Positions 4,635 through 20,717 of a stretch of 48,667 nucleotides of DNA are shown piece after piece. Made by a program: the position numbers and the translations under genes. The DNA is from Nitrospirota bacterium (GTDB taxonomy: Bacteria > Nitrospirota > Thermodesulfovibrionia > UBA6902). The notes under the pieces are model-generated. The model did no database searches, had not been told where the DNA came from, and was given only the letters and a program-made list of their open reading frames with translations. The stretch covers positions 1 through 48,667 of the forward strand of contig JACRLN010000050.1 of NCBI GenBank assembly GCA_016215115.1. The letters run 5' to 3'. The stretch's first letter is position 1, and every line of letters starts with the position of its first letter.

Positions 4635-4815
4635 TGTTAATACCTCCTAAACAAGTCAGCATCTTTATATCTTATCGGCTAAATCTATTGATTATATTAG
4701 TTAGAGGTATATATCTCTTACACACAATCTTATAAGGTAAATAAAATGAACTGCATATTTACTGAACAATCAGGCACAGTAATGTCAATGGAAGGCAAGC
4801 GCTTGAAAATTAACA

Positions 4816-4855
4816 GTGGAGCTGAACGGGATCGAACCGTCGACCTCTTGAATGC
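4816..4855 (-). other. 3' fragment of tRNA-Ala, candidate att site
   Basis: Forty bases match exactly the 3' part of the intact tRNA-Ala(GGC) gene at 34296-34371 (matching positions 34298-34337), in the same orientation. The match covers the T arm, the variable loop and the 3' side of the anticodon arm, ends in the anticodon loop, and stops before most of the CCA end. The sequence then diverges by an indel. A displaced 3' tRNA fragment in direct orientation, with the whole gene on the far side, is the usual scar of integration into a tRNA gene. Confidence 0.75.
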
Positions 4856-5037
4856 ATTCACTCAAGAGCAAATTATAAAATCGGCTACTGGTAACGTTTT
4901 GGGATTAAGTCTTTAATTTTCATAGTAGTATAAGTTTCTGATTTTTCTTGTCTTTTCCTGTATTTTCTGTCCCTTGCGCTACATTCGGCTACAATTCCGC
5001 TACACTAACCTTCAATATTAACCCAAATAATGCATTT

Positions 5038-5231: not shown

Positions 5232-5308
5232 TTTCAACTGCATTTTTCAGGTTAAATGGCGCGGGCACAAAATGGGCACAATTTTGCACAATTAAAAAAG
5301 GGGCGGAT

Positions 5309-6181
5309 TTAACAATTAAAGCAGCATGCCGGGTCTTTCTTATTAAATGTTTCCAGTAAAATATAAGTCCTGCCTCTGCAGCCGCCTTTACAATTATCAG
5401 CTATGGCGCATCCCCGGCATTCGTAAGGCGGAGCAATAATCTCTTTTCTTATTTGCCGTCTTTTAAATGAGGAGAAGATTTCTTTCAATGTTTCGGAGCA
5501 AAGATTGCCGAGCGTAACAGGCAGTAGCGGGCATGGTGTGACGTCCAGGTTATCAGCAATATAAATCATCGTGTAAGCCCCGTTGCAACCCATGCCTTCA
5601 AGATGCTCTCTTTTGAAAAAGACCTTCCATAAAAACGGGTCGTGAACCGTCAGCTTCAACAGTTCCAACGGTATCTCTTTTAAAGCATGTGCAAGCTGAT
5701 CGACTTCACTATGAGCAGGATAAAATATTTCTCCTTCTTCAGCCCTCTGAATCGGGAACTCAAGCTCCTTTATCCGGTTCTTAATACAAAATGCAATAAC
5801 TGCAGGGATTTCATGGAAGTTTTTTTGATTTAACAGGAAGGAAACATTAGCAATGATGTTATCCGAAACAGATAGAAGCTTCTCTATGGAATCCGTCTCA
5901 GTGAAAAGCGATATTCCGTGCTCTTGTAAATTCTTTATCATCGACCTTTCAATGGCGCCATGATTTATTGTTAACCTGATTTTAATATTCGATCTGGCCA
6001 ATTTATCGATAATATTGCTTACGGTCGTGCTTACAGGGTTTGAAAGGTCCCTGAGGTTAAGGACGAATATTTTGTTCTTTATCAACGCATCGCAGATAAT
6101 TGAAATGATAGCATCACTATACCCGGATGAATTTATGTCCCAGTAGACGATGAATGGGTCTATCAAATTATCAGGAGTCAT
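5309..6181 (-). CDS. GeoRSP-type SPASM-domain protein lacking the radical SAM cluster
   Basis: The 290-residue protein looks like a radical SAM/SPASM enzyme whose N-terminal part has no CxxxCxxC motif. The opening PFIVYWDINSSGYSD is followed by barrel-like segments with no cysteine triad. The C-terminal SPASM region is intact: Cys in GMGCNG, Cys in VTPCPLL, then C-x2-C-x5-C-x3-C in ECRGCAIADNCKGGC, and further Cys in DPACCFNC, enough for auxiliary Fe-S clusters. Its start lies inside the last codons of the radical SAM gene (11-bp overlap), so the two are co-translated and probably act as a pair. From memory, this three-part arrangement with PqqD is the GeoRSP system. Its role may be as a substrate-binding or electron-transfer partner. 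It is the last gene of the run. Confidence 0.8.
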   Translation of the reverse strand: MTPDNLIDPFIVYWDINSSGYSDAIISIICDALIKNKIFVLNLRDLSNPVSTTVSNIIDKLARSNIKIRLTINHGAIERSMIKNLQEHGISLFTETDSIEKLLSVSDNIIANVSFLLNQKNFHEIPAVIAFCIKNRIKELEFPIQRAEEGEIFYPAHSEVDQLAHALKEIPLELLKLTVHDPFLWKVFFKREHLEGMGCNGAYTMIYIADNLDVTPCPLLPVTLGNLCSETLKEIFSSFKRRQIRKEIIAPPYECRGCAIADNCKGGCRGRTYILLETFNKKDPACCFNC

Positions 6182-7184
6182 GACGCCAGCAGTGCGGATC
6201 AGGATTGTTCATATCACCCGTCAGGGCAAGTGTCCTTGCGGTGCAGCCACCCAGGCAGTCAGAATAATGGTCGCAACTTATACATTTCCCCTTAGCTGTT
6301 TTGCCCCTCATCATTTCAAGGACCGTGGAATTCTTCCACACATCAGCAAGGTCGTCAGTGCGCAGGTTTCCGATAACCATGGGAATAAACCCGCAGGGGG
6401 TGATGTCACCGTTTGATTTGATATTCAGGGACAGCTTTCCACACACGCTTCCCTTCACGAGGGTATCATTGCTTTTCTCTACAAGCTGAGAGATGATAGG
6501 GTCTTCAAGAGAAATACGGAGATTCTTTACCGACTTCTTCAACTCAATGGCCCGAATGTAGAAGTCCCGCCACTCCTCAGGAGTGAGGTCAAGTATGTCC
6601 TTGTTGGCTAAGCCGAGGCCCGAGCATTTGAAATTATGAAAGTTGATATTGGTCACCCCGGATGACAGCGCCATCTCAACCAGGCCGTCGACATCATCGA
6701 TATTTATTTTGCAGATGACCGAAGAAATAGAGGTTTCGATACCGGCCTCTTTCAGGTATGCCAACGCTGAGAGTGCCTTCTCATGGCTTCCTTTGATGCC
6801 CCTGAACTTGTCATGGACCCCCGGCTTGGGGCTGTCAATGCTGATGCCCACCTTTGAGAAACCGGCTACCTTGAGTTTCCGAGCGATGTCACGGTCAATC
6901 AGAAAGCCATTGCTGTTCATTGATACTGCAAAGCCCAGGTCCGCGCTGCGCCGGGCGATCTCCAGGAGGTCTTTTCTCAAAAGGGGTTCCCCTCCGCCGA
7001 AATTAACAGAAAACACTTTTGCCTTTGCAAGCTTATCAAGGACAACGCCAACAGTATCAATACTCAGCTCCTCTGTCGTATCGCTCCGGCTGTAACAATG
7101 GCTGCAGGCAAAATTACATATATTCGTGATCGCCCAGTTTACCGTCAGGGGCGAAGAGGGTATCAGATCATTCTTCATATACAA
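6171..7184 (-). CDS. radical SAM/SPASM peptide maturase, GeoRSP type
   Basis: Cytoplasmic radical S-adenosylmethionine enzyme. The [4Fe-4S] SAM cluster motif CNFACSHC is at residues 23-30. The SAM-binding GGGEPLLR is at about 63-70. The C-terminal SPASM domain has Cys in SVCGKLS and ITPCGFI, then CISCDHYSDCLGGC and DPHC. Such enzymes modify ribosomal peptides, for example PqqE and AnSME. The start is the TTG at 7184, six bases after AAGGAGG; the ATG at 7178 is a possible alternative. It overlaps the pqqD-like gene by 17 bp and the SPASM-only gene by 11 bp, so the cassette is one transcript. The substrate is not encoded next to it; two 20-residue genes elsewhere in the same block are candidates. 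Confidence 0.88.
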   Translation of the reverse strand: MYMKNDLIPSSPLTVNWAITNICNFACSHCYSRSDTTEELSIDTVGVVLDKLAKAKVFSVNFGGGEPLLRKDLLEIARRSADLGFAVSMNSNGFLIDRDIARKLKVAGFSKVGISIDSPKPGVHDKFRGIKGSHEKALSALAYLKEAGIETSISSVICKINIDDVDGLVEMALSSGVTNINFHNFKCSGLGLANKDILDLTPEEWRDFYIRAIELKKSVKNLRISLEDPIISQLVEKSNDTLVKGSVCGKLSLNIKSNGDITPCGFIPMVIGNLRTDDLADVWKNSTVLEMMRGKTAKGKCISCDHYSDCLGGCTARTLALTGDMNNPDPHCWRHDS

Positions 7185-7476
7185 GCCCTTCCTCCTTCAT
7201 ATTCTGCAGGAATTCGCCGGCATCTTTTCTCAGGACTTCCTCGTCAACATCAAACATTTCCCGCAGGGTGGAAACGATTTCCTGCGGTGTTTTTCCGTCA
7301 CACAATTTCCATATTTCGGTGCCGAGTACATTGAGAGAATGCATCTTGCCGGAATGAAGCAGGATCGAGGTGCCTATTTCAGCAACATCCTCTCCTGTGT
7401 CGAGCCCTTTATATGCCTGCTCTCTGAACTCGTCCTCTTCTCTCCACATTACGTCCGGGTTTCTGAATATCTTCAT
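7168..7476 (-). CDS. PqqD-family peptide chaperone (RRE), GeoRSP type
   Basis: This 102-residue protein has the PqqD fold: GTSILLHSGKMHSLNVLGTEIWKLCDG (beta strands followed by the first helix), then a helical tail with EIVSTLREMFDV and FLQNMKEEGLV. PqqD proteins bind the leader of a precursor peptide and deliver it to a radical SAM/SPASM enzyme. The start ATG at 7476 shares one base with the TGA of the cupin gene upstream, and its stop lies within the start of the radical SAM gene, so translation is coupled on both sides. Its presence shows that the neighbouring enzyme most likely acts on a ribosomal peptide. Confidence 0.85.
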   Translation of the reverse strand: MKIFRNPDVMWREEDEFREQAYKGLDTGEDVAEIGTSILLHSGKMHSLNVLGTEIWKLCDGKTPQEIVSTLREMFDVDEEVLRKDAGEFLQNMKEEGLVYEE

Positions 7477-7802
7477 CAGTCACCCACTGCCGTAAAGGAC
7501 GCAATGACCAGGTCTTCCTTTGATGCATTGCGTATCGCGTGATCAACAAGGGGCTGAACGATAACGATCTTACCGTTGCCGATCACCTGCATCTCGCCTG
7601 CTATCATGAATTCTCCCTGTCCCTCCATAACTATCCAGACATGGTTATCGTGATGGGTATGGGTGGTTATCTCCTGGCCGGGCTTCATGCAGATAAGGTT
7701 TATCTTTGTGTGCTTGTCAGACCATATTGTTTCTGTGTGCCGCTTTGTTTCATCAAATTTTTTAAGCTGGTTAATATCAAGTATCAAGGTCTTGTTCGAC
7801 AT
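7476..7802 (-). CDS. cupin-domain protein
   Basis: A single small cupin of 108 residues. The first cupin motif is recognisable as GQEITTHTHHDNHVWIVMEG, with His ligands spaced H-x-H and a His where many cupins have Glu. The second motif is near PLVDHAIRNAS. Cupins with this motif usually bind a divalent metal and act as a sensor, isomerase or dioxygenase; the substrate is unknown. The ATG at 7802 has TTGGAGGAC upstream and is preferred over the TTG four codons before it. The stop touches the pqqD start, so it belongs to the radical SAM cassette. A role in modifying or stabilising the peptide product is possible but unsupported. Confidence 0.75.
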   Translation of the reverse strand: MSNKTLILDINQLKKFDETKRHTETIWSDKHTKINLICMKPGQEITTHTHHDNHVWIVMEGQGEFMIAGEMQVIGNGKIVIVQPLVDHAIRNASKEDLVIASFTAVGD

Positions 7803-7873
7803 GATGTCCTCCAAATTTATTATTTATTCAAATCGTAAGCGATAGTACTTTTAGCATAGCTCATGTCAGGGAA

Positions 7874-9787
7874 TTATTTCATCGCCCTGAAAAATCTTTC
7901 GAGAATATCTGACGTCCCGCTAAAGACATGAAATGCCCCGGATACCTGGAGCTTGTCTGCATTTCTGACAAACCCATCGAATGTAACACCGTATCTGGAA
8001 GCCAGGCTGTTGGCAGCGGTCAGATCATTCATCCCATCCTGATGCTTTCCCGCCACGATCAATATGCTCTTCCCATTATTTAAAAATCTCGTAATTGTCT
8101 TCAGTTCAGAATCAGAAAAACCGTTTTCCGGACCTGGGCCTCCAAAAAGTACCCAGACCTGACTGTATCCCTCAAGCAGTGACTCAGTGACCTCGGGTTT
8201 TTCTTTCCTGTCTCTGAATGTGACGGTAAAGCCGTCTTTATTCTCAAGACTCTCCCCGGTGCTTTGACTGAAAACATTTCCTTCTGGTCCCTGTTCGCCG
8301 GATGCATTGTATATTAAAATGTTTTTCCTGCTCTTCGACACATTGTTCTCTTCCAGCCATGCAGCGACATTTCTTATATACCTGTTATTATCATATTTGT
8401 CTGCTGAACTGTTCAGAAATTTCACTGCTCCGGAATCAAAGAGAATGCCGCCTTGTCCCTCGACAGGATTAGTATAAGTAGCAATAATTCCTTTTCCCCC
8501 GGGGTCCATAACAATCCTTACGTGCCTGTCATTATGAGCTTTGGTAATAACGGCTGAATTACCTCCGGATATTGACGTGACACCCTGTAAAACAGGATTG
8601 CCCATATCTACATATGGGGTGAACACGAAGTGCTGAAACGCATAGGCGAGCATGATCGTGCCGGCAATACAGACGAACATGTACAAAAAAAATACCCTCT
8701 TCCTGAAAATCGACCAGAACATTAACATGGTAGGCAGGGCTGTTACCGGACCGCCGATAAGAAAAGCCAGTCCTGCCCCGCTGTTCATGGTGCCGTCAAG
8801 CGTGCTTTTGATATGGTAGAGAATACTTGAAGCGCTGATCTGGTGCAGGAATATTGGAACGGAGCCGAGTGTGACCCAAATGATGTTGAGGCTATTTTCC
8901 TGCCCGAATAATTTATATATCCACTCGTACGGCATGTATCTCTGGACGATACTTCCTGTCGCGACTCCGATGAGGACATATTTCCCCACAAGCCAGAGCA
9001 TCTCTGATGACTTTGCCAGAAACACGATGAACATGTTGCTGGTTTTGGCTGCTATCCTGTTGCCGAACTTCTCCTTGCAGCCGCACCTGAGACGTTCGTC
9101 AGGGTAATGCTCGTCATGAAAATCACCTCGCGGGAGAGCGCCTTCAATGAAAATGCTCTCTGTCTCGAACCCTTTCTTCCTTATAAGATGAGTAAGTACT
9201 CCGGCAAAAACACCTAATAAGAATGCTGCGACCGTCCTTATCACAGTCCATTCCGTACCCAGGTCATTAAGGGACAGCAGATAAGTTGACGGGCTCATCA
9301 GCGGGGAAGTGACAAGAAGCGCCATGACAGGCGCTAACGGCAGACCCGCAAACAGCAGGCTGATAGCTGTTGTCAACGTACCGCAAGCGCACAATGGAGT
9401 AAAGATACCTATGAACGATGCCAGAAAGATACTATAAAGACCATACCTGTTGAGGGTCCTCTGAAGTTTGATCGCGAGCTTGTAGGTACGGATAAATCCG
9501 GCCAGAAGCACACCTATAAGAAAATACGGGAACACATCCTTTAACTCTTGGAGCATTCCATGTCCGCTGAATACCATGTCCCAGATTTCACTTCCAAGGA
9601 TCACGGGGAATGGTTTTGTCAGAAGTTCCGGCCTTACTGCCTGACCAGTCGGGCCGTAAACCCGGACATGCCAGACTATCAGCGCAAAAGATGCAAAAAC
9701 CATGAACAGCAGCGGCTTGTTGGCTGCCCTTGAGGAGGCGCCATGTAACTGGCATTCATTGTTTTTCTTATCGCTTTTCATGTTCAC
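7874..9787 (-). CDS. SO_0444/ArsP-like permease fused to a C-terminal GATase-like domain
   Basis: Inner-membrane permease of the DUF318 or SO_0444 type. The first 390 residues or so hold about eight membrane helices, with the family motif PLCACGT in the first repeat and a CGC pair in the cytoplasmic loop. Relatives export heavy metals or organoarsenicals. After the last helix (VFFLYMFVCIAGTIMLAYAF) comes a soluble region of about 230 residues, including YSQVWVLFGGPGPENGFS and SILIVAGKH. That resembles the GldG/DUF4350 or class I glutamine amidotransferase-like fold without an obvious catalytic Cys. This fusion is unusual. The start is GTG at 9787 with GGA six bases upstream. It lies between a YedE-like transporter and the radical SAM cassette; substrate unknown. 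Confidence 0.75.
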   Translation of the reverse strand: MNMKSDKKNNECQLHGASSRAANKPLLFMVFASFALIVWHVRVYGPTGQAVRPELLTKPFPVILGSEIWDMVFSGHGMLQELKDVFPYFLIGVLLAGFIRTYKLAIKLQRTLNRYGLYSIFLASFIGIFTPLCACGTLTTAISLLFAGLPLAPVMALLVTSPLMSPSTYLLSLNDLGTEWTVIRTVAAFLLGVFAGVLTHLIRKKGFETESIFIEGALPRGDFHDEHYPDERLRCGCKEKFGNRIAAKTSNMFIVFLAKSSEMLWLVGKYVLIGVATGSIVQRYMPYEWIYKLFGQENSLNIIWVTLGSVPIFLHQISASSILYHIKSTLDGTMNSGAGLAFLIGGPVTALPTMLMFWSIFRKRVFFLYMFVCIAGTIMLAYAFQHFVFTPYVDMGNPVLQGVTSISGGNSAVITKAHNDRHVRIVMDPGGKGIIATYTNPVEGQGGILFDSGAVKFLNSSADKYDNNRYIRNVAAWLEENNVSKSRKNILIYNASGEQGPEGNVFSQSTGESLENKDGFTVTFRDRKEKPEVTESLLEGYSQVWVLFGGPGPENGFSDSELKTITRFLNNGKSILIVAGKHQDGMNDLTAANSLASRYGVTFDGFVRNADKLQVSGAFHVFSGTSDILERFFRAMK

Positions 9788-9830
9788 TAAAATCCATCAT
9801 GTTACTTTATATGATTTTCAGGCACAGATA

Positions 9831-11057
9831 TTAATCAAGTCCTGACTGGAATTCAGGGGCAAAGGTCTCACCTCTTTTGCGGTAGAGAAGCCCGACCGCA
9901 AACAACGCGCAAAGACCCAGGAGTATCGCAATTTTCCCCTCGTACGGCGTCCCGGCAGCATTTCCTCCAAGCCCCCAGTTTTGCACGAGTGCTGCGCCGG
10001 TCAGCATTCCGAGCACAGACGCGCCTGCATCAGTATCGCCCTGACCTGCGGCTATCAACTGCCGGAACGGGCAGCCTTTTATAAGCACGGAGCCAAAGCC
10101 AACTAAGAGCATGCCAAAGAAATTCCAGAGATGGCTGTCATTTGAACTGGGCTGACCGTACCAGCCGAGGGAGAACTGTCCGGTAAGAATACTCGCGACA
10201 AATGCGAACAGGAAAAAAGAAACCATACCGAGTGCAAGGCCTGTAGTTTTGGGGCAGAAAGTGAATTCCTTTGACCCCCAAAGGAACAATCTTGATATGC
10301 CTCCGGTTATACAAAAACCTGTGCTCTGTCCTAAAGCACCGATGCCGAGGCCTGCGATGAGAGAAAGGTAGAGAGGAGCATGCTGCGCTCCAGCCCCTTT
10401 GCTGCTCAGCGATATGAAATCGGGTTTCAACAGAAGGACTCCAAGCAGGGATGCCATTAATAGAGGAATTAAAAGGGCATTTGCCGCAGGAAGCTTATTC
10501 GGTCTGCCAAGGCTGAAACCTCTTTCGAGAAACTTCAGACCGATATATACGCCTGCTACGAGTCCTCCCATACCGATCCATGCCGTGAGGTCTCCCGCCG
10601 CGATTTTGAAGACCATCTTAATTGGACATCCCATGAATACAGCGCATCCGATTATCATGAGGATCCCTACAAAATATCTGAGAAGGGGCGAACTTCCGCC
10701 GGTGGCCCTGAACTCTTTTTTATAAAGCGACATAAAGAACGAGCCTATGACAAATCCGATGATCTCCGGCCTCAGGTACTGCATTCTCGTATTTCCATGA
10801 AGTCCGATCGAGCCTGCAATGTTCTCCATAAAACATGAGACACAAAAACCGGTGTTAGCCGGATTGCCCAGGAAACTGAGAATGACTCCGGTAATGCCGA
10901 TAATCGCCCCTGTCAGGATAAAAAGACCCTTCGGATAACATTCTGTTTCCGAAGAAATTGTCAAACTGCTGGTCCAGTTCCGTATCCTTCCCAAGACCCA
11001 GTTTACGGGTCTGATCTTGCAGACATCTTTTGCAGTTATTTCAGATAAATTTCCCAT
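9831..11057 (-). CDS. YeeE/YedE-family transporter, selenium-associated YedE type
   Basis: Polytopic membrane protein of 408 residues with about ten hydrophobic helices and the duplicated YeeE/YedE architecture. Cysteine landmarks are TGFCVSCF, GCPIKMV, TGFCITGG and KGCPFRQL, pairs typical of thiosulfate and sulfur-compound channels. The N-terminal GNPANTGFCVSCF...IAGSIGLH and RPEIIGF resemble the subgroup annotated as the YedE-related selenium metabolism membrane protein. Transport of a selenium or sulfur species across the inner membrane is therefore plausible, and the window does encode a selenoprotein. The usual partner, a TusA-like protein, is not adjacent. The upstream neighbour is a TPR protein whose stop is 23 bp away. 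Confidence 0.78.
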   Translation of the reverse strand: MGNLSEITAKDVCKIRPVNWVLGRIRNWTSSLTISSETECYPKGLFILTGAIIGITGVILSFLGNPANTGFCVSCFMENIAGSIGLHGNTRMQYLRPEIIGFVIGSFFMSLYKKEFRATGGSSPLLRYFVGILMIIGCAVFMGCPIKMVFKIAAGDLTAWIGMGGLVAGVYIGLKFLERGFSLGRPNKLPAANALLIPLLMASLLGVLLLKPDFISLSSKGAGAQHAPLYLSLIAGLGIGALGQSTGFCITGGISRLFLWGSKEFTFCPKTTGLALGMVSFFLFAFVASILTGQFSLGWYGQPSSNDSHLWNFFGMLLVGFGSVLIKGCPFRQLIAAGQGDTDAGASVLGMLTGAALVQNWGLGGNAAGTPYEGKIAILLGLCALFAVGLLYRKRGETFAPEFQSGLD

Positions 11058-11080
11058 ACTAATAAATAATCTCAGCTCCT

Positions 11081-11608
11081 TCAGGAGCAGCTTCCGGCAA
11101 TCTTTCTCTGTAAATAATAGACATTCTTTCTGCCGCTGTTCATGGAAGCATCATCCGGATTCAGGCGAATTGCCTTTTCAATCTCGGTCAATGCCTCTTT
11201 GACAGCCACCTTTAATTTTTTCCCCTGAAAAAGTGTTGTCTTCTTATCAAGGTAGTCAGGATTCAGATCAACAGCCTGCCTGTACTCGGGCATCGCCTTA
11301 AGCGGCTCCTGTCTCCTCATGGAAATATCTCCCATCATCATATGGGGTTCTCCCTCATGAGGATATTTCTGCATGAGTTCCCGGGTCAGGGCTTCGGCCC
11401 TGTCAAGAGTATTGGCCTCAATAAGGGTCCTTATCAATTTAAGTTCTTCGGCCATCTCGCCATTTACCGCAGGACGCTCCGCCAGGGCCTTTCGTTCGTG
11501 CACTATACTGTCCGGTCCGGCCTCACCCATATGACTGCTGATAAGCACAACTGCAGTGATGATGAGAAGGACGATAGCCAGTCCGGATATTTTGTCAAGC
11601 CGGTCCAT
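11081..11608 (-). CDS. membrane-anchored TPR protein
   Basis: The protein begins MDRLDKISGLAIVLLIITAV, a single N-terminal membrane anchor or uncleaved signal. About 120 residues follow with tetratricopeptide-like helices: ANTLDRAEALTRELMQKYPHEGEPHMMMGDI, PLKAMPEYRQAVDLNPDY and ALTEIEKAIRLNPDDAS. I place the start at the ATG 11608, just after the stop of the PhnD-like gene, whose last codons supply AGAGGT as ribosome site. A longer frame extends upstream into that gene but lacks sense as protein. TPR proteins of this sort scaffold periplasmic or cytochrome-maturation complexes, as in CcmI/NrfG. The nearby ResB homolog fits that, but a specific partner is not shown. Confidence 0.72.
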   Translation of the reverse strand: MDRLDKISGLAIVLLIITAVVLISSHMGEAGPDSIVHERKALAERPAVNGEMAEELKLIRTLIEANTLDRAEALTRELMQKYPHEGEPHMMMGDISMRRQEPLKAMPEYRQAVDLNPDYLDKKTTLFQGKKLKVAVKEALTEIEKAIRLNPDDASMNSGRKNVYYLQRKIAGSCS

Positions 11609-11612
11609 AATA

Positions 11613-12518
11613 TTAATACCTCTGATACGGCGGCATGTTCGTCCTCTTTGCCATGTCGCGAATGCCGTCGAAGTCCCTGTCTGTGACATCTTCGTATCCG
11701 TCGATATGTGCCCGTTCAAGGGCCTTTATTACCTCACCGTTAAACTCGACAGTATCATCTTTCTTAATATTCAGCAGCACATCTTTGAACCTCTTTGCGA
11801 AATCCTCCGGTATCTTCTGGGTAACCGCAAAGTTGCAGTACGGGACCGGTTCTCCTTCTGCAAGGACTGTAAAGTCTCCCGGGTCGATCCTGCCGTCAGC
11901 GATCATCCGTTCATAATCAAGAAGCGGTGCAGCGCCCGCATCATATTTTCCGAAGAGCACGCCGTAGATGACCTTTTCATGTTTGAACGATCCTGCAGGG
12001 ATAGAATAATACGCGAGGTCGCTCTCAGGGTCGATCCCGTTCTTCATAAGTATATCCAGTTGGGCCATATATGAAGTAGGTCCGAGTGCGGGGCCGAATA
12101 TCATGGACTTGCCCCTAAGTTCCTGGACGCTCTTTATCCCGCTCTTTTTTGAAGCGATGATCAGGCCTTTTACCCTGGCGCCAAGGGATCCTGATTTCTC
12201 TGCTGCAAGGACCTCGACCCCGTTGTTTCTGTTCATGATTACATACAGCAATGAATTTGTATGTGTAAAATCCAGTTCGTCCACGTGTTTTGTAAAATCC
12301 GAGGTGTCAAGCGCGACTGCCTCAAACCGAACCCCCATCTTTTTGCTCAGGTATGCTGTGAAGGGTTTGAAGCGCTGAAGCGTCTCCTGTTCACTGTTGC
12401 AGATCATGTATCCGATCTTATATGTTTTCCTGTTGTCTGTGGTAGGCGCCTGAGTACAGGACATGACTAATAAAAGAACAGCAATGGACATATATATTGT
12501 AAATTTACCTGTATCCAT
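11613..12518 (-). CDS. PhnD/SsuA-type periplasmic binding lipoprotein
   Basis: A 301-residue lipoprotein. The signal peptide ends in the lipobox LLLVMSC, giving a lipidated Cys near residue 21. The mature part starts YKIGYMICNSEQETLQRFKPFTAYLSKKMGV and has the phosphate/phosphonate-binding pattern GKSMIFGPALGPTSYMAQLDILMKNGIDPESD and GKYDAGAAPLLDYERM. No ABC permease or ATPase lies nearby. As with other orphan PhnD-like proteins beside cytochrome genes, it may sense or bind an oxyanion rather than import it. The start overlaps the end of resB by 14 bp with AGAGG upstream, so expression is coupled. Confidence 0.82.
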   Translation of the reverse strand: MDTGKFTIYMSIAVLLLVMSCTQAPTTDNRKTYKIGYMICNSEQETLQRFKPFTAYLSKKMGVRFEAVALDTSDFTKHVDELDFTHTNSLLYVIMNRNNGVEVLAAEKSGSLGARVKGLIIASKKSGIKSVQELRGKSMIFGPALGPTSYMAQLDILMKNGIDPESDLAYYSIPAGSFKHEKVIYGVLFGKYDAGAAPLLDYERMIADGRIDPGDFTVLAEGEPVPYCNFAVTQKIPEDFAKRFKDVLLNIKKDDTVEFNGEVIKALERAHIDGYEDVTDRDFDGIRDMAKRTNMPPYQRY

Positions 12519-13428
12519 AAAGCCTCTTGAATAAAAATATGATAGATCCTATTCCGGCAACCGCAAACCCTACATACACATACGGGACGCCGGGGTCGTT
12601 CGTTATCTGAATTCCTGCAAAAGGAAAGCCGTATTCATCAGTATCCACTTTGGTATTATAAAAACTGAATTTTCCCCACGTCAACGGATGGTTTACCTCA
12701 GATGTTCCCTCTGTTACCACTTCTGAATCTTTCGACAGGCTGAGGTCCACCCACAGTCTTTTCAGTGAAGGATTTTGATAGGCCACGAGCTTGAACTCAT
12801 AAGGGAAATCTGCAGGGAGGGTGTTATCTCCGAGCGTGTCTGCAGTGCCGACAAGATTATCTCCGTCATAAATACTGAGGTTGAGCTTCTGCGCCTGCAT
12901 CAATTCCAGGTTATCTGCCTTGACAGTGAACTGCTCCAGATGAAAGCTTTCACCGGTCTTAAGCATGAAGAGCCCGACCTTTTCCTTTCCTCTGAGGACG
13001 CCTACTTTTACAGCTACCGGATAATATTGTACATTTATTTTTTTCACCATTATATCAACTCCAAGCGGCATGTCCTTCTTTAAGTCCCACCGGTAAACTT
13101 TGTCAGCCTTTTTTCCCTCGTAGATGTTCACTGTTGCAATGTAACCAAAGGAACTGATCACTGCACCGGCAAAGCTCATAAGGACCCCAACATGTATTAC
13201 AATGACCGCTTTTGCGATCGTCTTTATCCGTTGCAGCGTGCACAGCGCTAAGTTCAGACCTACGAGCCCGAAGATCATGCTGCCCCACGTGCCTAACTGA
13301 ATGTCCTCTGTCTTTATGAAAGTCCTTGGGATTAAAAAAAGGCAGAGGACCAGGAAGATCCCCAGGGTAAACTTCTTTGATCCAAAAAAAAGATACAGCC
13401 ATTCAAACCTCTTCAATGACCACCGCAT
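12505..13428 (-). CDS. resB: ResB-like cytochrome c biogenesis protein
   Basis: Membrane protein of 307 residues resembling ResB/Ccs1 of system II cytochrome c maturation. It has N-terminal helices (FTLGIFLVLCLFLIP, MIFGLVGLNLALCTL and a third helix VIVIHVGVLMSFAGAVISSFG). A large extracytoplasmic beta-rich domain follows (YEGKKADKVYRWDL to FYNTKVDTDEYGFPFAGIQI), then a last helix YVYVGFAVAGIGSIIFLFK. ResB helps deliver heme to apocytochrome c outside the membrane. Its partner ResA or ResC/CcsA is not in the window. It fits a block whose first gene encodes a cytochrome with more than thirty heme sites. It is shorter than many ResB proteins, so it may be a specialised paralog. Confidence 0.8.
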   Translation of the reverse strand: MRWSLKRFEWLYLFFGSKKFTLGIFLVLCLFLIPRTFIKTEDIQLGTWGSMIFGLVGLNLALCTLQRIKTIAKAVIVIHVGVLMSFAGAVISSFGYIATVNIYEGKKADKVYRWDLKKDMPLGVDIMVKKINVQYYPVAVKVGVLRGKEKVGLFMLKTGESFHLEQFTVKADNLELMQAQKLNLSIYDGDNLVGTADTLGDNTLPADFPYEFKLVAYQNPSLKRLWVDLSLSKDSEVVTEGTSEVNHPLTWGKFSFYNTKVDTDEYGFPFAGIQITNDPGVPYVYVGFAVAGIGSIIFLFKRLYGYR

Positions 13429-13440
13429 TGGCCTTTCTTG

Positions 13441-14022
13441 TTATATAAGTTTTATTGATTTTAGAAAATCCCGCGCGACGGTCCTGGGCTTCCCGCCGGA
13501 TTCCACGGAATTGATCAGTTTTGTATACATATCATCATTAATACTGCCGCCGAGTTTGTTAATCAGCCTCGGAAGCGCAGGGAAATTAATCAACACATCA
13601 TCGGTAATCACAGGGACGTAATAATACTGTCCTATACCATCTTCACGGTTAAGCATTCCAAAGGGTTTCAGCCATATGAGGTTTAATCTGTTCCTGAACT
13701 CTTCCTTTAAAACATCATATGCCTTTGCATTATCCTCATTTTTAGAGATATTCAGGATCTTTGATGCGCGCTCGGTATTTTCAATTATTATGCTGACTTC
13801 GACGTTCTTCACTGCATCGTAAATATCTTTTGAATCGCTGTAAACCTTGATGTTAACAATCGTGCCTGTTCTCTCATTTACCAGCACCGAGACCAATTCG
13901 GCAAGAAAGTTTTCATTAACCGAATTCAGAATGCCTATATTCAGGATTTTGCCGACACAGGCGTGTGAATGGCTGGCAGAAAGAAGCAATATTGCCAACA
14001 GGCCTGAAATTATCTTTTTCAT
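13441..14022 (-). CDS. OpuAC-like substrate-binding domain protein
   Basis: Secreted protein of about 193 residues. The signal peptide is MKKIISGLLAILLLSASHSHA, with an immediate Cys. The mature sequence CVGKILNIGILNSVNENFLAELVSVLVNERTGTIVNIKVYSDS follows the start of glycine betaine-type binding proteins (OpuAC): a thiol-containing opening, then a domain that recognises the substrate. Later LIWLKPFGMLNREDG also fits. At under 200 residues it is only about two thirds of the usual length, so one lobe may be reduced. The start is the ATG at 14022; a GTG at 14031 overlaps the stop of the upstream gene. No transporter partner is seen. Confidence 0.62.
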   Translation of the reverse strand: MKKIISGLLAILLLSASHSHACVGKILNIGILNSVNENFLAELVSVLVNERTGTIVNIKVYSDSKDIYDAVKNVEVSIIIENTERASKILNISKNEDNAKAYDVLKEEFRNRLNLIWLKPFGMLNREDGIGQYYYVPVITDDVLINFPALPRLINKLGGSINDDMYTKLINSVESGGKPRTVARDFLKSIKLI

Positions 14023-14027
14023 CTCTG

Positions 14028-14825
14028 TCACTTCACCTCAACAACAATATCAAAATTATCCTTACCGGATTCAATAATCAATTCTTTGTAAATGCTGTAA
14101 CTGCGCGGCGGAAATTTATCGGTGTACCCTATTATGTATTTCCCCTTTGGCAAATAAAGAGCATAATGTCCTGCTTCGTCAGACCATGAAGATATAAAGT
14201 CAGACATTTCATTTAAATGTGAATCTCCTCCCTCTGTCAATAGTGGATTAAGTGATGTATCCCTTCCTTTTCTGTCAGCAATGACATAATACATCTGTAT
14301 AGGCATGCCATTCTTGTCAACTACACGCCCTGACATCCTTAAATAATCCTCCCTTGTCTTTCTTGTCAGACTCGCAGCATCCCTGATATCCGCCACTTTA
14401 AAATTCATCTCAAGCTCTCTATCAGCTTTAACCCAGATATCAACCGGTTCTCCTGAATGTTTGTCTCCAACCATAAGAGGCCCATATTTGTCGCCCCTTC
14501 TCAATCTCGCTACCGCCCAATACTTTCCGGACGGCAACGTCATAGTGAAATGTCCATCATCATCCGTGCGACCTGATATGAAATCAGCAGGCCTCCTGGT
14601 ATCAGGAGAATTATAAATAAATATCTCTGCCACTTTAACTGCATTGCCTTCTACGTCAAAGACCTGCCCCCTGAAAGCAGCCGTATCGACAGCGATCACT
14701 TTCTGGACGCCGAATGACTGCATTAAAGCAATTAAAATAAGGGCGATTCTAAAGATATTGTCAAGCAGGCGCAAATATTTGTTTATCTCCCATAATAGCA
14801 AAGAGGCCTGATTTAATTTCTCCAT
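14028..14825 (-). CDS. carboxypeptidase-regulatory-like (CarboxypepD_reg) surface protein
   Basis: A 265-residue protein with a hydrophobic N-terminal segment (IFRIALILIALMQSFG) and two beta-sandwich units of the carboxypeptidase regulatory type. The first is FRGQVFDVEGNAVKVAEIFIYN...FTMTLPSGKYWAVARL, the second MSGRVVDKNGMPIQMYYVIAD...YALYLPKGKYIIGYTD. Such domains act as stalks or adhesive modules outside the cell; there is no enzymatic site. The start overlaps the end of the beta-helix gene by 13 bp, which shows operon structure. The same module occurs in the products at 17584 and 18446, so the block carries a family of related surface proteins. Confidence 0.75.
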   Translation of the reverse strand: MEKLNQASLLLWEINKYLRLLDNIFRIALILIALMQSFGVQKVIAVDTAAFRGQVFDVEGNAVKVAEIFIYNSPDTRRPADFISGRTDDDGHFTMTLPSGKYWAVARLRRGDKYGPLMVGDKHSGEPVDIWVKADRELEMNFKVADIRDAASLTRKTREDYLRMSGRVVDKNGMPIQMYYVIADRKGRDTSLNPLLTEGGDSHLNEMSDFISSWSDEAGHYALYLPKGKYIIGYTDKFPPRSYSIYKELIIESGKDNFDIVVEVK

Positions 14826-17359
14826 CTCAATTCCAACTGCTCCTTAAAAAACGGCTTATAAATAACTTCCCCTATCCCGGGCTCACGTCTTGCGTCAAAT
14901 ATCGTCGCAGCAGGGTCATCTACTCCCCACCAGTTTTCCCGCGCATCAACGTCTTCAGTATTAAAATCCCCTACTCTGAGATTGTAAGCCTTGTTTGAAT
15001 AAATATTGTTATTCTTAATGGTTATTCCGCCTCCTTTTTCTCTCACAAATATACCGACCTCATTATTTAATATAACATTTCCCTCTACCAATGCATTCCC
15101 GAAGTATGACCTGATCCCGACGTTATTTTCTTTAAATAATGAATATCTGACCTCAACAGGGCCGCTCCTGAATCGTAGGCCCCCATAGTTGTGCAAGAAA
15201 CGGCTGTTTGAGATTTTCAGATTGGTGAAATGGCTGTGAATCGCCCATGTCGCATATTCAAAATCGCAGAAGGAGAATTCACTCCCATCAGCATGCTCAA
15301 GAAGTATTTCGTCCCACAGATCATCTTTGTTTTTATCCTCAGAAGTAAAAACAATCCTCCCGTCCTCTTTTCCTGTCGCAAGGATTTTCCCGGATAAAAT
15401 CTTTATTCCTGTTCCTTTTAAGAATGAAATCTTCGTGGCAGGAGAAAGTTCGAGCGTTACTCCGGAAACATTAACACTATTTTTCAATATAATATCTCCG
15501 AGCCATGTTATATCAGCAAAAATATCTTTGACCGGCCATGTAAATGGCAACTGATTTTCCTTAATCGGCGCATATAATATTCTTCCTCTTCCAGGATCAT
15601 CTTCTTTATCGTAAATTACACTGCCTGCATCCTTTCCTCCCCACCAGTTTGAAGGAGCAAAGATATCCACGGCGCTTTCATTCTCAATAGCACAAAGGCC
15701 GTTTGAGGCAATACTGTTTTCGGTTATTATTCCTGTAAATGATTGAACACCAATACCTCTTTCACCGTTTCCTAGAATAAAATTATCTTTAATTAATGCC
15801 CTGCTATCCTGCAGGTTTATACCGTTAAATCCGTTGCCCTGAATGAAATTTTCGCTAACCTCAATATTGTCAGACCCTTTAAGCGACAGACCCGATTCAT
15901 AATTATTCACAATAACATTACCGCTGAACTTTCCATGAAAGGCATCGTTCACCATCATGCCGTATCTGCCGCACCCTATGAAATTTTCATCAGCGTTTGT
16001 GACGCCTTCCCTGATCTTAAATCCCTCGTTCATATTACCGAGGATTTTATTGTTTGAAGCAGACAAACTTGAGCGGAAAAAATTGACGCCGTTGATATTG
16101 TTATAGACATAGTTATCGGTAAAGACGATTTCCGAGTCCCTGCCCTTGACCCCGCTCTTATTATTAAAGATATAGTTGCCTTTCATCTCCACTGCCGATT
16201 CCTGAAACTGAATGGCCCGGTAATTATTGCTCAGGACAGACCCCTGCACCATCACATTGGAAAAATGGAAATGGAGCCCCCGGTAGGCATCCTCTATGCG
16301 GCAGTATTCCACCAGGTTCTGCGCGCCGTCGCTGTTCATAATATTTATGCCGTCCCAGTCACCCATTGAACGCGCTGTTCCCGCAGACCGGAATATGATC
16401 GGATTATCTCTTGTGCCCTTTGCGATGAGTACCCCCTGCATAAGCAGCCCGTTCTCCCCTATGCCGTCGCCGTTTGTGTCCTTTTTTGTGAACTCGATAA
16501 CGGTACCTGGAACAATGACAAGCCTGACCTTTTCAGGCACCCTTATCAGACCGTTGACCACAATCCTGCCACGCCAGACCGTATCTCCAGGCAAAACCTC
16601 GTCGTTGTATACTTTTGTCACTTCTTTCTCCAGCGCTTTATATTCTTTCATAAATCCGGTCGCAGGTTTATTGCAGGAAACGTAACGCCCTGCAATCAAG
16701 TCTTTTATCTCCGGTTTGACCATGTCGGGTTTCAGAACAACTACCTTATCTGCTTCGATCAGATATAAGTCTCTCTTCCTGTTATCTGCAATAATGTTTT
16801 TTTTGTAATTAACCTTTGCGCCTGCAAATGCAAATACTCCGTAATCATTATTTGCAACCTGTGTTTTCTTCATGCTCACAAAAGCCTGCGGCCCCTGCGC
16901 AATAAGGCCATACCGGTTATTTTCAATAATAGAATCGGTTAATTCAAGAGACCCGTTCATTATAAGAAGGCCTGTTTCCGCATCCTCAATCCTGCACGCT
17001 TTTATATATGCATTTCCTCTGTCAATAATTATTCCTGCCCAACGGTCAGGTTTATCATTTTTCACTTGAAATACGACTGGCGCTTCCCTGGTTCCATCAA
17101 TCACAAGCCTGCCCCTGATTGTCATCTCGGTCATGAATGAAAGGTATTCCGCCCCGTTCTTTGTCCTATCGGAAGGAATGATGTTTACCATTGTGCCGGA
17201 TAGAATAGTGAGTGTAACGCCTTCAGGCACAACGATGTCTTCTGTAAGAGTTATTTCGCCTTTCCAAACGGTATCTCTTATAATGGTTTTTCCTGAGGCG
17301 CAATAAGGTAATAAAACAAAAAAGATAAGAAACAGGAGTGTTGTTCTCAAAAATTCCAT
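14813..17359 (-). CDS. secreted right-handed parallel beta-helix protein
   Basis: An 848-residue secreted protein. The signal peptide is LLFLIFFVLLPYCASG, ending near residue 23. The rest is made of three units, each opening with a threshold such as IIRDTVWKGEITLTEDIVVPEGVTLTILSGT and followed by parallel beta-helix turns (PbH1/NosD style) rich in N-N, for example NNYGVFAFAG, NNKSGVKG and GNGFNGINLQDS. Each unit ends in ENWWG or NWWGG plus DDP(A/G). The same WWG-plus-YDEN/KPF ending appears in the product of 18446. Beta-helices of this type bind or process polysaccharides or serve as surface scaffolds. The gene follows a terminator-like hairpin, so it may begin a new transcript. Confidence 0.8.
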   Translation of the reverse strand: MEFLRTTLLFLIFFVLLPYCASGKTIIRDTVWKGEITLTEDIVVPEGVTLTILSGTMVNIIPSDRTKNGAEYLSFMTEMTIRGRLVIDGTREAPVVFQVKNDKPDRWAGIIIDRGNAYIKACRIEDAETGLLIMNGSLELTDSIIENNRYGLIAQGPQAFVSMKKTQVANNDYGVFAFAGAKVNYKKNIIADNRKRDLYLIEADKVVVLKPDMVKPEIKDLIAGRYVSCNKPATGFMKEYKALEKEVTKVYNDEVLPGDTVWRGRIVVNGLIRVPEKVRLVIVPGTVIEFTKKDTNGDGIGENGLLMQGVLIAKGTRDNPIIFRSAGTARSMGDWDGINIMNSDGAQNLVEYCRIEDAYRGLHFHFSNVMVQGSVLSNNYRAIQFQESAVEMKGNYIFNNKSGVKGRDSEIVFTDNYVYNNINGVNFFRSSLSASNNKILGNMNEGFKIREGVTNADENFIGCGRYGMMVNDAFHGKFSGNVIVNNYESGLSLKGSDNIEVSENFIQGNGFNGINLQDSRALIKDNFILGNGERGIGVQSFTGIITENSIASNGLCAIENESAVDIFAPSNWWGGKDAGSVIYDKEDDPGRGRILYAPIKENQLPFTWPVKDIFADITWLGDIILKNSVNVSGVTLELSPATKISFLKGTGIKILSGKILATGKEDGRIVFTSEDKNKDDLWDEILLEHADGSEFSFCDFEYATWAIHSHFTNLKISNSRFLHNYGGLRFRSGPVEVRYSLFKENNVGIRSYFGNALVEGNVILNNEVGIFVREKGGGITIKNNNIYSNKAYNLRVGDFNTEDVDARENWWGVDDPAATIFDARREPGIGEVIYKPFFKEQLELRWRN

Positions 17360-17466: not shown

Positions 17467-17529
17467 TCAACAGGGGTGAATAGCGGCGCTCCCGACTATT
17501 CTGGGAGGAACATATTTTATCTTCTTCAA
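17467..17529 (-). CDS. 20-residue conserved peptide, copy A
   Basis: Start TTG at 17529 with GGAGG six bases upstream; product MKKIKYVPPRIVGSAAIHPC, stop TGA. It is nearly the same peptide as copy B at 20655-20717: 16 of 20 residues match, and the four differences are K/R, R/K, V/I and A/V. At the DNA level nine further codons differ only synonymously, the pattern expected of a translated and selected gene. The peptide has a basic start, a YVPP turn and a C-terminal HPC. It follows the 17584 gene and precedes a terminator. Its size is that of a PqqA-type precursor, and a PqqD/radical SAM cassette lies in the same block. A role as substrate is inference; I do not recognise the family. Confidence 0.8.
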   Translation of the reverse strand: MKKIKYVPPRIVGSAAIHPC

Positions 17530-17583: not shown

Positions 17584-18453
17584 TTATTTCTTATTTTCAA
17601 TCTTCTTCTCCATCTCCTGTTGCATCTTTTTTATTTGATTTTCCCGGAAATTCTCGTCAGCTCCAGCTCCCGGCTGATGCTTGGGACCCATCTCGAGATG
17701 CCTTATCACCTTTATGTCTATGCCCTTTGTCATCTCGCCTGTCTTCGCGGTTGCGGCAGTAGGCTTTTCTTCTCCATAGCCGCCCATGATCGACCCGGGA
17801 ATGGGCGGGCCTCCTCCGTATACGTCTCTTACTCTGAGGAAATATTGTCCCCCCTTATCTACGGTGATGATATATTTGCCGTCCTTTCCGGTTTTATATG
17901 AAGTAAAGGTCGGAATCCCGGTCATTGTCTCCGTATAATATGCAAACAATATCGCCCCCTCAACAGGCTTTCCTGCCATATCAAGGATGGTGCCCGATAT
18001 ACCGGTGACTCCTTCAGGGAGTGACCTTTTATACGGGACGGCCCCTGCAAGGGCTCCGAGCTTTAATTCTTTGCCGTACTCGATAACGTGCTGTATAGGA
18101 TTGCCTTCTTTGTCCCCGCTGATAAAGAAATAATCTCCGTCAAGCGGCGGGCCTGCTTTTTCAGTGGATGCTCTTTTAATCGCTCCGATGTAGTACTTGC
18201 CGGCAGGAAGCGAGATGCGAAACCTGCCTTCAGCATTTATTTCGTCTATCCCGTTCGGAACCCTGAAGTATTTATCAAGAGACGGCGGCGGTCCGGATTG
18301 GGTATCAAAGAAAACTATCATGGCATCGGCTAACGGCCCGTCGTCCTTGATCATTATTTGACCTGAGATCCAGCCAGTCTCAATTTCCGCATGGATCGCA
18401 GTTGCTGATAACACTGCAATCAGAAATGACAGAAATATGATTTTTTTAATCAT
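17584..18453 (-). CDS. secreted carboxypeptidase-regulatory-like protein
   Basis: A 289-residue secreted protein with signal peptide MIKKIIFLSFLIAVLSATAIHA. It contains two beta-sandwich units: ISGQIMIKDDGPLADAMIVFFD...FRISLPAGKYYIGAIKR and ISGTILDMAGKPVEGAILFAYY...YIITVDKGGQYFLRVRD. The charged tail NQIKKMQQEMEKKIENKK is probably helical. Proline- and glycine-rich stretches (GGGPPIPGSIMGGYG) look like flexible linkers. It starts 8 bp inside the end of the upstream carboxypeptidase-regulatory/beta-helix gene, so the two are co-translated, and it is followed by the 20-codon gene copy A. The probable location is the periplasm or cell surface. Confidence 0.75.
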   Translation of the reverse strand: MIKKIIFLSFLIAVLSATAIHAEIETGWISGQIMIKDDGPLADAMIVFFDTQSGPPPSLDKYFRVPNGIDEINAEGRFRISLPAGKYYIGAIKRASTEKAGPPLDGDYFFISGDKEGNPIQHVIEYGKELKLGALAGAVPYKRSLPEGVTGISGTILDMAGKPVEGAILFAYYTETMTGIPTFTSYKTGKDGKYIITVDKGGQYFLRVRDVYGGGPPIPGSIMGGYGEEKPTAATAKTGEMTKGIDIKVIRHLEMGPKHQPGAGADENFRENQIKKMQQEMEKKIENKK

Positions 18454-20506
18454 GATGCCTCCCTTTTCCGGCTCCTGCGTTTTTTACCGGGGCGTTATAA
18501 AATGGTTTGTAGATTACACCGCCTAAAGAAACGTCTCTGTTTTCATCGTATATGGCATTCTTGATATCCTCTTCTCTGTCGCTTCCCCACCAGTTGTCAC
18601 TTAGCAATATATCATATCCCTGTCTTTCACCCAGTCTGAAATTATATTCAGTATTATACGAAATATTGTTGTAAGTGACAATAAATTGTTTGCGTGGAAG
18701 GGCATCTTTTTTGTCGAATGTGTTTGAAAAACCCACTATATTCTGGTTCGACGGCACAAGGAAAATGCCGACACCGTTATTTCTGATGTTGTTGTATGTG
18801 ATTTCGACAGGCTCTTCAACCCTTGTATGTCTGATGCCGTAAGTATTATCGAAGATGTCATTATGCTCAATGCGAAGATCGGCCCTGCCGAACCTTATGC
18901 CTTCATAATTATTTCTAAAGACAGAGTCTTCAATTACCGCTTTTGAAAAATGTACCTGAACGCCGGTAAAGGCATATTCAAATATGCAGTATCTTAAAAT
19001 GCTCTCATCGCCTGACACAAAAAACAGGAGATATGACCAGTCCGCTTTATCCGGCGTTGTCTCAGCGGAAGTAAATCTGATGGGCCTTTTTGCAGAGCCC
19101 TGCGCCTTAAGCCTGCCGCTAACCTTTATCATGGCGTCTCCAACCCCGTCTCCTGTCCGGTCAATCTTCTTAAATCTGACTGTTGTCCCAGGAGCAATGG
19201 TTAGTGTTACTCCTCGGGCTACGTGGACGATCCCGGAAATTAATATGTCTCGTTCCCACACGGTATTATTACAGATAACCACATCCCCTTTGTATTCATG
19301 ATTGCCAACCTTTTCTTCTGACTTCCGGCTTCTGACTTCTGACTTCTTTTTGCTCGCCTCCATCACCCTGTTTACAAAAATATTTACGCCATCATGCGAT
19401 TTGCCATTCATTATAAACAAGTGATTTGCGTTCGCTTCATAAAGCCCATAGTATTCGCCTTTGACAGGGGCCTCCCCGGCGAACTGCCGGGCCACCAGGT
19501 AATATGCACCCTCTGCTGCGTCTATTGAGTAGTACCCTTTCACATCAGTTCTGGCCATATAATCAGGCATGGTCCTTACGTAATGCATCTGAAACATATC
19601 CGAGGTCTTTCCCTTGTAAGCCATGACATAGAGGTCTTTCACAGGATTGCCCTCCAAGTCGGTTGCCCTTCCTTTTATCATGAAGACATCCTGTGCCGCA
19701 TTGAGTTTATTTTCCCTGAACCTCAAGCTGTCAGCATCTGATTTTTTTACCAGAATCGCAGGATAGGCGTCCTCATTAAGAAAGGCCTTGAGGTCGTCTT
19801 TTGGATAACATGGGATCTCCGCCTGTGTTTCTGTTGAATCCGTGAGCGTCACGGGATTGTCGGGAAGATAACAGAAGAGGTCTCCTTTTTCGAGAGGAGT
19901 CATGCTGCTGTTGCTCAACCTCTTGCGCGCAATAACAACATATTCTCCCAGCTCAATGCTCATGCTGAACCCCCCGTTGTTATCGGTTGTGTTTGTAAGA
20001 AAACCCATACCCCTGAAAACAGAGTTTGGAGCCAGGAGTTCGGAGTTAAGAGTTAAAGCTGGCACGGGATAGATTGAAACCTGCGCGCCTTTGACAGGAG
20101 CACCCTTGAAGAGGACTTTGCCTGAAAGCTTCGCAGAAGCTGATTCCTTTACATTCACTGCTGTTTCAGGAACAGCCATAAATGGAACCCAGAGATTTTG
20201 GTCTTCAACCTTGACCGGATTGGCTCCGTGATAGGAAAAATATTTTTTATCGCCGGACTGTCCTGACGCGGTTAAATAATATATTCCGGACGGCAACTCT
20301 ATTTTGAAGAATCCTTCTTTTTTGCCCGGGGCGGAAACATAAGCCGGAATTCCTTTTTTAATATCCTGAAACCTGATATAAGCTTGCACCTTTGAGTCAT
20401 TAAGCGCACCGTCTTCCGAAAGCACAACCCCTTCAATAACAGCGGAATATGAAGATGTGGCAGAAAAAAAAATTACAAGTAAAAAAGCGATTACGTGAAT
20501 CTGCAA
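18446..20506 (-). CDS. secreted CarboxypepD_reg plus beta-helix protein
   Basis: I place the start at the TTG 20506, which gives the signal peptide MQIHVIAFLLVIFFSATSSYSA; an ATG at 20536 lies inside a dispersed repeat, and reading further upstream runs through the repeat and the 20-codon gene. The mature protein has three carboxypeptidase-regulatory units (VIEGVVLSEDGALNDSKV, LSGKVLFKGAPVKGAQV, IKGRATDLEGNPVKDLYV). A right-handed beta-helix follows from GDVVICNNTVWERDI onward, ending in DNWWGSDREEDI and YKPFYN. It thus fuses the two domain types found separately in its neighbours. Two 8-base-period repeats are inserted in frame: one gives LTLNSELLAPNS, the other KKKSEVRSRKSEEK, just before the beta-helix. 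Confidence 0.72.
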   Translation of the reverse strand: MQIHVIAFLLVIFFSATSSYSAVIEGVVLSEDGALNDSKVQAYIRFQDIKKGIPAYVSAPGKKEGFFKIELPSGIYYLTASGQSGDKKYFSYHGANPVKVEDQNLWVPFMAVPETAVNVKESASAKLSGKVLFKGAPVKGAQVSIYPVPALTLNSELLAPNSVFRGMGFLTNTTDNNGGFSMSIELGEYVVIARKRLSNSSMTPLEKGDLFCYLPDNPVTLTDSTETQAEIPCYPKDDLKAFLNEDAYPAILVKKSDADSLRFRENKLNAAQDVFMIKGRATDLEGNPVKDLYVMAYKGKTSDMFQMHYVRTMPDYMARTDVKGYYSIDAAEGAYYLVARQFAGEAPVKGEYYGLYEANANHLFIMNGKSHDGVNIFVNRVMEASKKKSEVRSRKSEEKVGNHEYKGDVVICNNTVWERDILISGIVHVARGVTLTIAPGTTVRFKKIDRTGDGVGDAMIKVSGRLKAQGSAKRPIRFTSAETTPDKADWSYLLFFVSGDESILRYCIFEYAFTGVQVHFSKAVIEDSVFRNNYEGIRFGRADLRIEHNDIFDNTYGIRHTRVEEPVEITYNNIRNNGVGIFLVPSNQNIVGFSNTFDKKDALPRKQFIVTYNNISYNTEYNFRLGERQGYDILLSDNWWGSDREEDIKNAIYDENRDVSLGGVIYKPFYNAPVKNAGAGKGRHHD

Positions 20507-20531
20507 TTTAATTACAGCCTCTTGAAAAGTC

Positions 20532-20599
20532 GTCATTCCCGTGCTTAAGCACCTACTGTTGGTGAAAACCTGCCTGCCAGCAGGCAGGCGGGAATCCAG
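20532..20599. repeat. dispersed palindromic repeat, GTCATTCCCG family, copy 2
   Basis: It begins GTCATTCCCG and ends GCGGGAATCCAG, with an inner palindrome CTGCCTGCCAGCAGGCAG. It lies between the 20-codon gene copy B and the following gene, and it supplies an ATG (in the complement of GTCATTCC) that makes that gene seem longer than its signal peptide suggests. Confidence 0.7.
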
Positions 20600-20654
20600 A
20601 GTGTTGTGTAACCCATTGAAAATACTGCATCCCAGAGTTTCCCCAAGTTTATAC

Positions 20655-20717
20655 TCAGCACGGATGTATAACTGCGCTGCCGATGATCTTTGGCGGAACA
20701 TATTTTATCCTCTTCAT
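20655..20717 (-). CDS. 20-residue conserved peptide, copy B
   Basis: ATG at 20717 with AAGGGGG seven bases upstream; product MKRIKYVPPKIIGSAVIHPC, stop TGA. It is the paralog of copy A at 17467-17529. Compared codon by codon, nine codons differ synonymously and four give conservative replacements, with none lost or gained, so the peptide itself is conserved. It starts 80 bp after the stop of the giant fibronectin gene and lies 148 bp before the next gene, with a dispersed repeat between. There is no signal peptide or Gly-Gly site. It may be a precursor peptide for the radical SAM/PqqD cassette, or an unmodified micropeptide. I do not recognise the family. Confidence 0.82.
   Translation of the reverse strand: MKRIKYVPPKIIGSAVIHPC

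Follow-up and report, generated by a model that had tools for sequence, protein, structure and literature searches.

NCBIfam names a system, GeoRSP, by models for a PqqD-family protein (TIGR04302), a radical SAM/SPASM enzyme (TIGR04303) and a SPASM partner without a radical SAM cluster (TIGR04304). Several better described systems resemble the locus studied here. With the biosynthesis of PQQ (PqqA, PqqD, PqqE) it shares a short single-ORF precursor, a PqqD-family chaperone and a radical SAM/SPASM enzyme. Mycofactocin (MftA, MftB, MftC) is similar in that an RRE-type protein and a radical SAM/SPASM enzyme work at the C terminus of the precursor. Sactipeptides and ranthipeptides are likewise made by radical SAM/SPASM enzymes (SkfB, CteB, PapB) from Cys-containing peptides. 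GeoRSP itself has probably been a named orphan without a known substrate, for which we now propose a 20-residue candidate. No relevant paper on the GeoRSP name or on these peptides was found in the open-licence literature searched, where 'VHPC' also did not occur together with radical SAM; a prior description elsewhere is possible. In the same literature, RiPP mining papers mention Geobacter for lasso peptides only, and radical SAM genes from transcriptomes of Geobacter sulfurreducens could not be connected with the GeoRSP family.

The cassette and its operon

The window, the whole 48,667-nucleotide stretch of DNA analyzed, carries at 5309-7802 consecutive minus-strand genes for a cupin, a PqqD-family protein, a radical SAM/SPASM enzyme and a SPASM protein lacking the radical SAM cluster (Table 1). 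The original prediction that all four overlap or touch was borne out, with overlaps of 1 base between the cupin and PqqD genes and 11 nt at each of the next two junctions. The radical SAM gene starts at ATG 7178, with GAAGGAGG just 5' of it, and ends at 6171. The PqqD, radical SAM and SPASM genes are adjacent and on the same strand, as in the GeoRSP arrangement, and their order is identical to that of the NCBIfam system.

Profile searches upheld the predicted GeoRSP-type reading for two of the proteins and qualified it for the third. The radical SAM enzyme exceeds the TIGR04303 cut-off of 400 bits and the PqqD protein (131.6 bits) the TIGR04302 cut-off of 100, the latter also matching PqqD in Pfam, and by these matches both are identified as GeoRSP proteins. 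The next-best profiles for the radical SAM enzyme are AhbD (191 bits) and NirJ2 (188 bits). The SPASM protein has TIGR04304 as its best match, at 212 bits with the next profile at 47 bits. Because this score lies under the cut-off of 300, we regard the protein as an apparent divergent counterpart and not as a certified equivalog. HMM hits that assign the proteins to some other, already characterised RiPP family having a precursor of its own had been named as evidence against GeoRSP, and no such family fits. A scan of viral contigs for GeoRSP relatives in phages found none.

A neighbourhood survey, suggested earlier as a check, covered another 76 loci (Nitrospirota, Geobacter-type and other bacteria), and it places the cassette within an operon conserved in Nitrospirota and Geobacter-type bacteria. 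The conserved order runs from beta-helix and CarboxypepD_reg secreted proteins through a periplasmic-binding-protein-like (PBP-like) protein, ResB, a PhnD lipoprotein, a TPR protein, YedE and ArsP to the cassette, which ends the operon in the order cupin, PqqD, radical SAM, SPASM. In survey loci the ArsP position may instead hold a NicO/TPR/beta-helix or an MFS protein. Upstream, the operon of the window continues with a 2452-residue fn3 protein and then a 1689-residue cytochrome with 32 CxxCH motifs. These, together with the beta-helix and CarboxypepD_reg proteins, agree with the predicted block of cytochrome and surface proteins. Terminal or paired cysteines are kept in several operon proteins, such as the penultimate Cys of the TPR protein and the ACVG[KR] motif of the PBP-like protein.

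Table 1. Features of the GeoRSP operon in the window, by position
Feature	Position	Strand	Remarks
Cluster-less radical-SAM/SPASM protein, putative divergent TIGR04304 counterpart	5309..6181	-	barrel without CxxxCxxC; seven SPASM Cys
GeoRSP radical SAM/SPASM enzyme	6171..7178	-	TIGR04303, 530 bits; CNFACSHC
GeoRSP PqqD-family peptide-binding protein (predicted)	7168..7476	-	TIGR04302, 132 bits
Cupin_2 protein	7476..7802	-	conserved His residues
ArsP_1-type permease	7874..9787	-	weak GIFT-like C-terminal match; conserved C133xC135, C235xC237
YedE-family transporter	9831..11057	-	TIGR04112, 388 bits; six conserved Cys
Membrane-anchored TPR protein	11081..11608	-	invariant penultimate Cys, tail AGSCS
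PhnD-type substrate-binding lipoprotein	11613..12518	-	conserved C40, C228
ResB-like membrane protein	12505..13428	-	
Small periplasmic-binding-protein-like protein	13441..14031	-	weak OpuAC match; invariant ACVG[KR] after signal peptide
CarboxypepD_reg secreted protein	14028..14825	-	
Beta-helix (NosD-like) secreted protein	14813..17359	-	
Candidate precursor peptide copy 1, LKKIKYVPPRIVGSAAIHPC	17467..17529	-	TTG start, GGAGG upstream
CarboxypepD_reg secreted protein	17584..18453	-	
CarboxypepD_reg/beta-helix secreted protein	18446..20701	-	actual start probably downstream of 20701
Candidate precursor peptide copy 2, MKRIKYVPPKIIGSAVIHPC	20655..20717	-	ATG start
Giant fn3/beta-propeller surface protein, 2452 aa	20797..28155	-	
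Giant multiheme cytochrome c, 1689 aa	28131..33200	-	32 CxxCH

Some further features of these loci were noted. The placement of ACVG[KR] in the PBP-like protein predicts a mature N-terminal Cys. The tail of the TPR protein, whose gene adjoins YedE, varies as [AKY]G[GS]Cx, with GGCGG in one genome (G073). In the GeoRSP loci that diverge most (L116, L120, L121, L125 and L128), a cysteine desulfurase gene closely follows the cassette and was assigned to TIGR01977 at the two loci scanned, L116 and L121. Geobacter-type loci including L066, L069, L079 and L080 carry an FmdE-family protein with a zinc-ribbon-like end between SPASM and PhnD. Elsewhere in the window, a tRNA-like 3' fragment at 4815-4875 (GGATCGAACCGTCGACCTCTTGAATGC), uncalled by ARAGORN and close to repeats downstream of the cassette, is possibly an old attachment site, and ORF translations at 45255-48625 read as an NRPS module with an adjoining phosphopantetheinyl-transferase-like gene.

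The HPC peptide family

Peptides of 20 residues had been mentioned in passing in the original prediction, and a search for short conserved ORFs recovered a family of about that length, MKKxxYxxPRxVGSxxVHPC-stop (consensus MKKxxYVRPRVVGSAxVHPC-stop), with two copies in the window. Y6, P9, P19 and C20 are invariant. Run against 24,739 short ORF segments, the family profile recovers 30 copies at E<1e-7, with the next match at E 1.9, and in the 2.8-Mb genome of the window it matches these two copies only. Neither Pfam nor NCBIfam has a model that matches the family. A Shine-Dalgarno-like sequence precedes each of the 67 distinct DNA copies, and the VHPC codons of these copies are variable at position 3 and nearly fixed at positions 1 and 2, the exceptions being one His-to-Tyr copy and a few V-to-I/M changes. 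A genome may hold up to 16 copies.

The peptide follows GeoRSP closely across genomes. Among 395 Nitrospirota genomes it was detected in 24/25 with the GeoRSP radical SAM enzyme versus 5/370 without it (29 in total; Fisher p about 2e-32, a value that ignores shared ancestry); the remaining 366 genomes have no peptide match at E<=0.001. Within the genus of the window, three genomes have both peptide and GeoRSP and three have neither, and all five genomes reached from Geobacter-type and other bacterial loci have the peptide. One genome (G297) has a GeoRSP cassette over cut-off yet no detectable peptide and no PhnD/TPR module, and no divergent precursor was seen in the surroundings of its cassette (L070). 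The five genomes with the peptide and no GeoRSP radical SAM enzyme over cut-off (G022, G063, G084, G373 and G385) are all incomplete MAGs (74-94%), and in G063 a contig end falls inside the operon; GeoRSP could also be truly absent from these five.

This co-occurrence, together with the position of some copies, links an encoded short precursor to the enzymes, as in RiPPs modified by radical SAM enzymes, and the leader-binding domain of such systems is represented by the PqqD matches in Pfam and NCBIfam, which predict binding. In two loci (L120, L121) the peptide lies between the radical SAM and SPASM genes, and in L111 it is right behind the radical SAM gene. We consider it likely that GeoRSP is a RiPP-type maturation system acting on the approximately 20-residue HPC peptides. 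Many copies are distant from the cassette, which counts against their being the substrate.

CarboxypepD_reg or beta-helix genes occur within 3 kb of 49 of the 65 copies examined, and many copies lie 20-300 nt upstream of such a gene. One possibility is that the HPC ORFs act as regulatory leaders or arrest peptides preceding surface-protein genes, with a small molecule such as a porphyrin as the GeoRSP substrate; the AhbD and NirJ2 matches of the radical SAM enzyme would fit such a substrate. We regard this as very unlikely, since the peptide co-occurs with GeoRSP genome-wide, some copies sit between the radical SAM and SPASM genes, others end operons behind cytochromes with no surface-protein gene downstream, and the PqqD-family protein of the cassette indicates a peptide substrate. 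Cytochromes with at least 5 hemes lie within 3 kb of 16/65 copies and are the immediate upstream gene of 11, versus about 6% of ORFs at remote loci (17/268).

The substrate could instead be the tail (AG[GS]Cx-stop) at the C terminus of the TPR protein, modified in the cytoplasm before export, with the HPC peptides being something else. The TPR/PhnD module accompanies GeoRSP in 23/25 genomes, nearly as tightly as the peptide does, and every full-length copy, divergent ones included, keeps the penultimate Cys, the tail being the best-conserved part of the protein. However, it is the peptide and not the TPR gene that lies between the radical SAM and SPASM genes in L120 and L121, and G022 keeps the TPR tail with no GeoRSP radical SAM enzyme found over cut-off. 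We take the tail to be comparable to the carrier arms of SoxY or DsrC, and we know of no radical chemistry that those arms need, which also counts against this alternative. It appears quite unlikely, and the HPC peptides are the substrate that we favour.

The cluster-less SPASM partner

The radical SAM enzyme carries CNFACSHC; the SPASM protein had been predicted to keep a full SPASM cysteine set and to lack CxxxCxxC, and it has the seven cysteines and no such motif. C199, C217, C255, C258, C264, C268 and C286 are invariant in a 41-sequence alignment and are kept in 57-59 of 59 homologues in a wider set. Its structure model is confident (pLDDT 90), and the best PDB matches of the model are all radical SAM/SPASM enzymes (anSMEcpe, PqqE, SuiB, TigE, CteB and SkfB). 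Taken together, these observations argue that the protein has the radical SAM/SPASM fold and has lost the SAM cluster alone. In five genomes (G013, G023, G031, G039 and G046) a cluster-less SPASM protein is coded away from the cassette, and none was seen in the genome of G003.

Comparison of divergences, in which Mantel values ignore shared ancestry, shows that the peptide tracks the SPASM protein when the radical SAM enzyme is controlled for (partial r 0.43 in 18 Nitrospirota and 0.28 in 30 genomes, p about 0.0002), versus partial r of 0.08 and 0.12 for the radical SAM enzyme when SPASM is controlled for. Tracking by PqqD, ResB, ArsP and TPR is weak or absent. The comparison also looked for, and did not find, closer coupling of the peptide to the radical SAM enzyme or PqqD than to the rest of the operon. 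The PBP-like and beta-helix proteins, which are physically linked to the peptide, covary with it above SPASM (partial r 0.51 and 0.48).

The operon of the window is a mosaic across 5253-20717. PqqD-radical SAM and YedE-TPR-PhnD-ResB resemble one genome (G377), and SPASM, the surface-protein block and the peptides resemble another (G231; about 83-86% DNA identity). The SPASM protein is 85% identical to the G231 type versus 34% to the G377 type, and the operon is a natural recombinant. Since divergence tracks between peptide and SPASM, and since the recombinant pairs a G231-type SPASM protein with G231-type peptides, these data suggest direct contact between the SPASM partner and the peptide. 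The partner may also plausibly act in electron transfer, because PapB, a SPASM enzyme, requires intermolecular electron transfer for turnover (PMC10470005). We infer both roles from these comparisons.

Proposed mechanism and relation to known systems

Sequence comparisons support the peptide family as such, the signals for its translation, the link to GeoRSP and the neighbourhoods of the copies, and from these we infer the binding, reaction, export and surface steps as follows. The PqqD protein would bind the peptide at the basic N-terminal stretch MKKxxYxxPRxVG, and the radical SAM/SPASM enzyme would modify the C-terminal core SxxVHPC by radical chemistry. Cys20 or His18 may be the modified residue, an assignment that we offer tentatively. 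The cluster-less SPASM paralogue, presumably no SAM enzyme itself, would hold the peptide and/or pass electrons via two auxiliary clusters. After export, the modified product would work together with the surface proteins and giant multiheme cytochromes whose genes lie beside those of the peptides; that it functions in extracellular electron transfer is possible but doubtful. One speculative reading, which we consider unlikely as a whole, is that a new redox-active or metal-binding RiPP derives from the HPC peptide and acts with giant extracellular multiheme cytochromes, serving Nitrospirota and Geobacter-type bacteria as a cofactor or ligand for extracellular electron transfer, with the cluster-less SPASM protein being the obligate partner of the radical SAM enzyme that chooses the peptide.

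ArsP, YedE, PhnD, the PBP-like protein and the Cys-tailed TPR protein may transport or bind either the product or some metal or sulfur species that it requires, and the annotations of the transporters suggest chemistry of soft metals, sulfur or selenium. A far-reaching version, which we hold to be highly improbable, is that the whole operon including GeoRSP serves selenium uptake and use. YedE, a 'putative selenium transporter', is over the TIGR04112 cut-off, the TIGR01977 cysteine desulfurase follows the SPASM gene in divergent loci, and the genome of the window has two SelD copies over cut-off. The presence of SelD there is uninformative, since nearly all of the class of the window has it. 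No SelD match was obtained in five genomes that carry GeoRSP and belong to a single genus (G003, G013, G031, G039 and G046; completeness 96-97% in two), so a selenium requirement for GeoRSP was rejected as unsupported. Each of the two SelD copies (G000:C8:8365-9291 and G000:C42:1733-2647) contains an in-frame TGA.

With HPC peptides as the favoured substrate, a candidate of 20 residues makes the GeoRSP reaction directly testable. A multi-copy peptide beside giant cytochromes and surface proteins would connect the maturation of peptides with extracellular electron transfer in bacteria that reduce metals, a link for which nothing was found in the open-licence literature searched. The pair of an active and a cluster-less radical SAM protein may also be a suitable case for examining how a partner assists electron transfer in SPASM enzymes.

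Relative to the named GeoRSP system, with which the locus shares radical SAM and PqqD proteins over cut-off and a SPASM partner without the radical SAM cluster, the extended operon and the peptide are additions described here; the SPASM protein of the window differs in lying under its cut-off, and no NCBIfam model matches the precursor peptide. The radical SAM enzyme falls below the equivalog cut-offs of both PqqE (138.5 bits; cut-off 381) and MftC (163.7 bits; cut-off 265). The candidate core is HPC whereas that of PQQ is Glu/Tyr, and GeoRSP adds a second, cluster-less SPASM protein and several peptide copies; mycofactocin precursors end in VY and the GeoRSP peptide in VHPC. SkfB and CteB, whose structures are matched by the model of the SPASM partner, belong to sactipeptide and ranthipeptide systems, from which the peptide of the window differs in having 20 residues and a single C-terminal Cys, with no profile of those families over cut-off.
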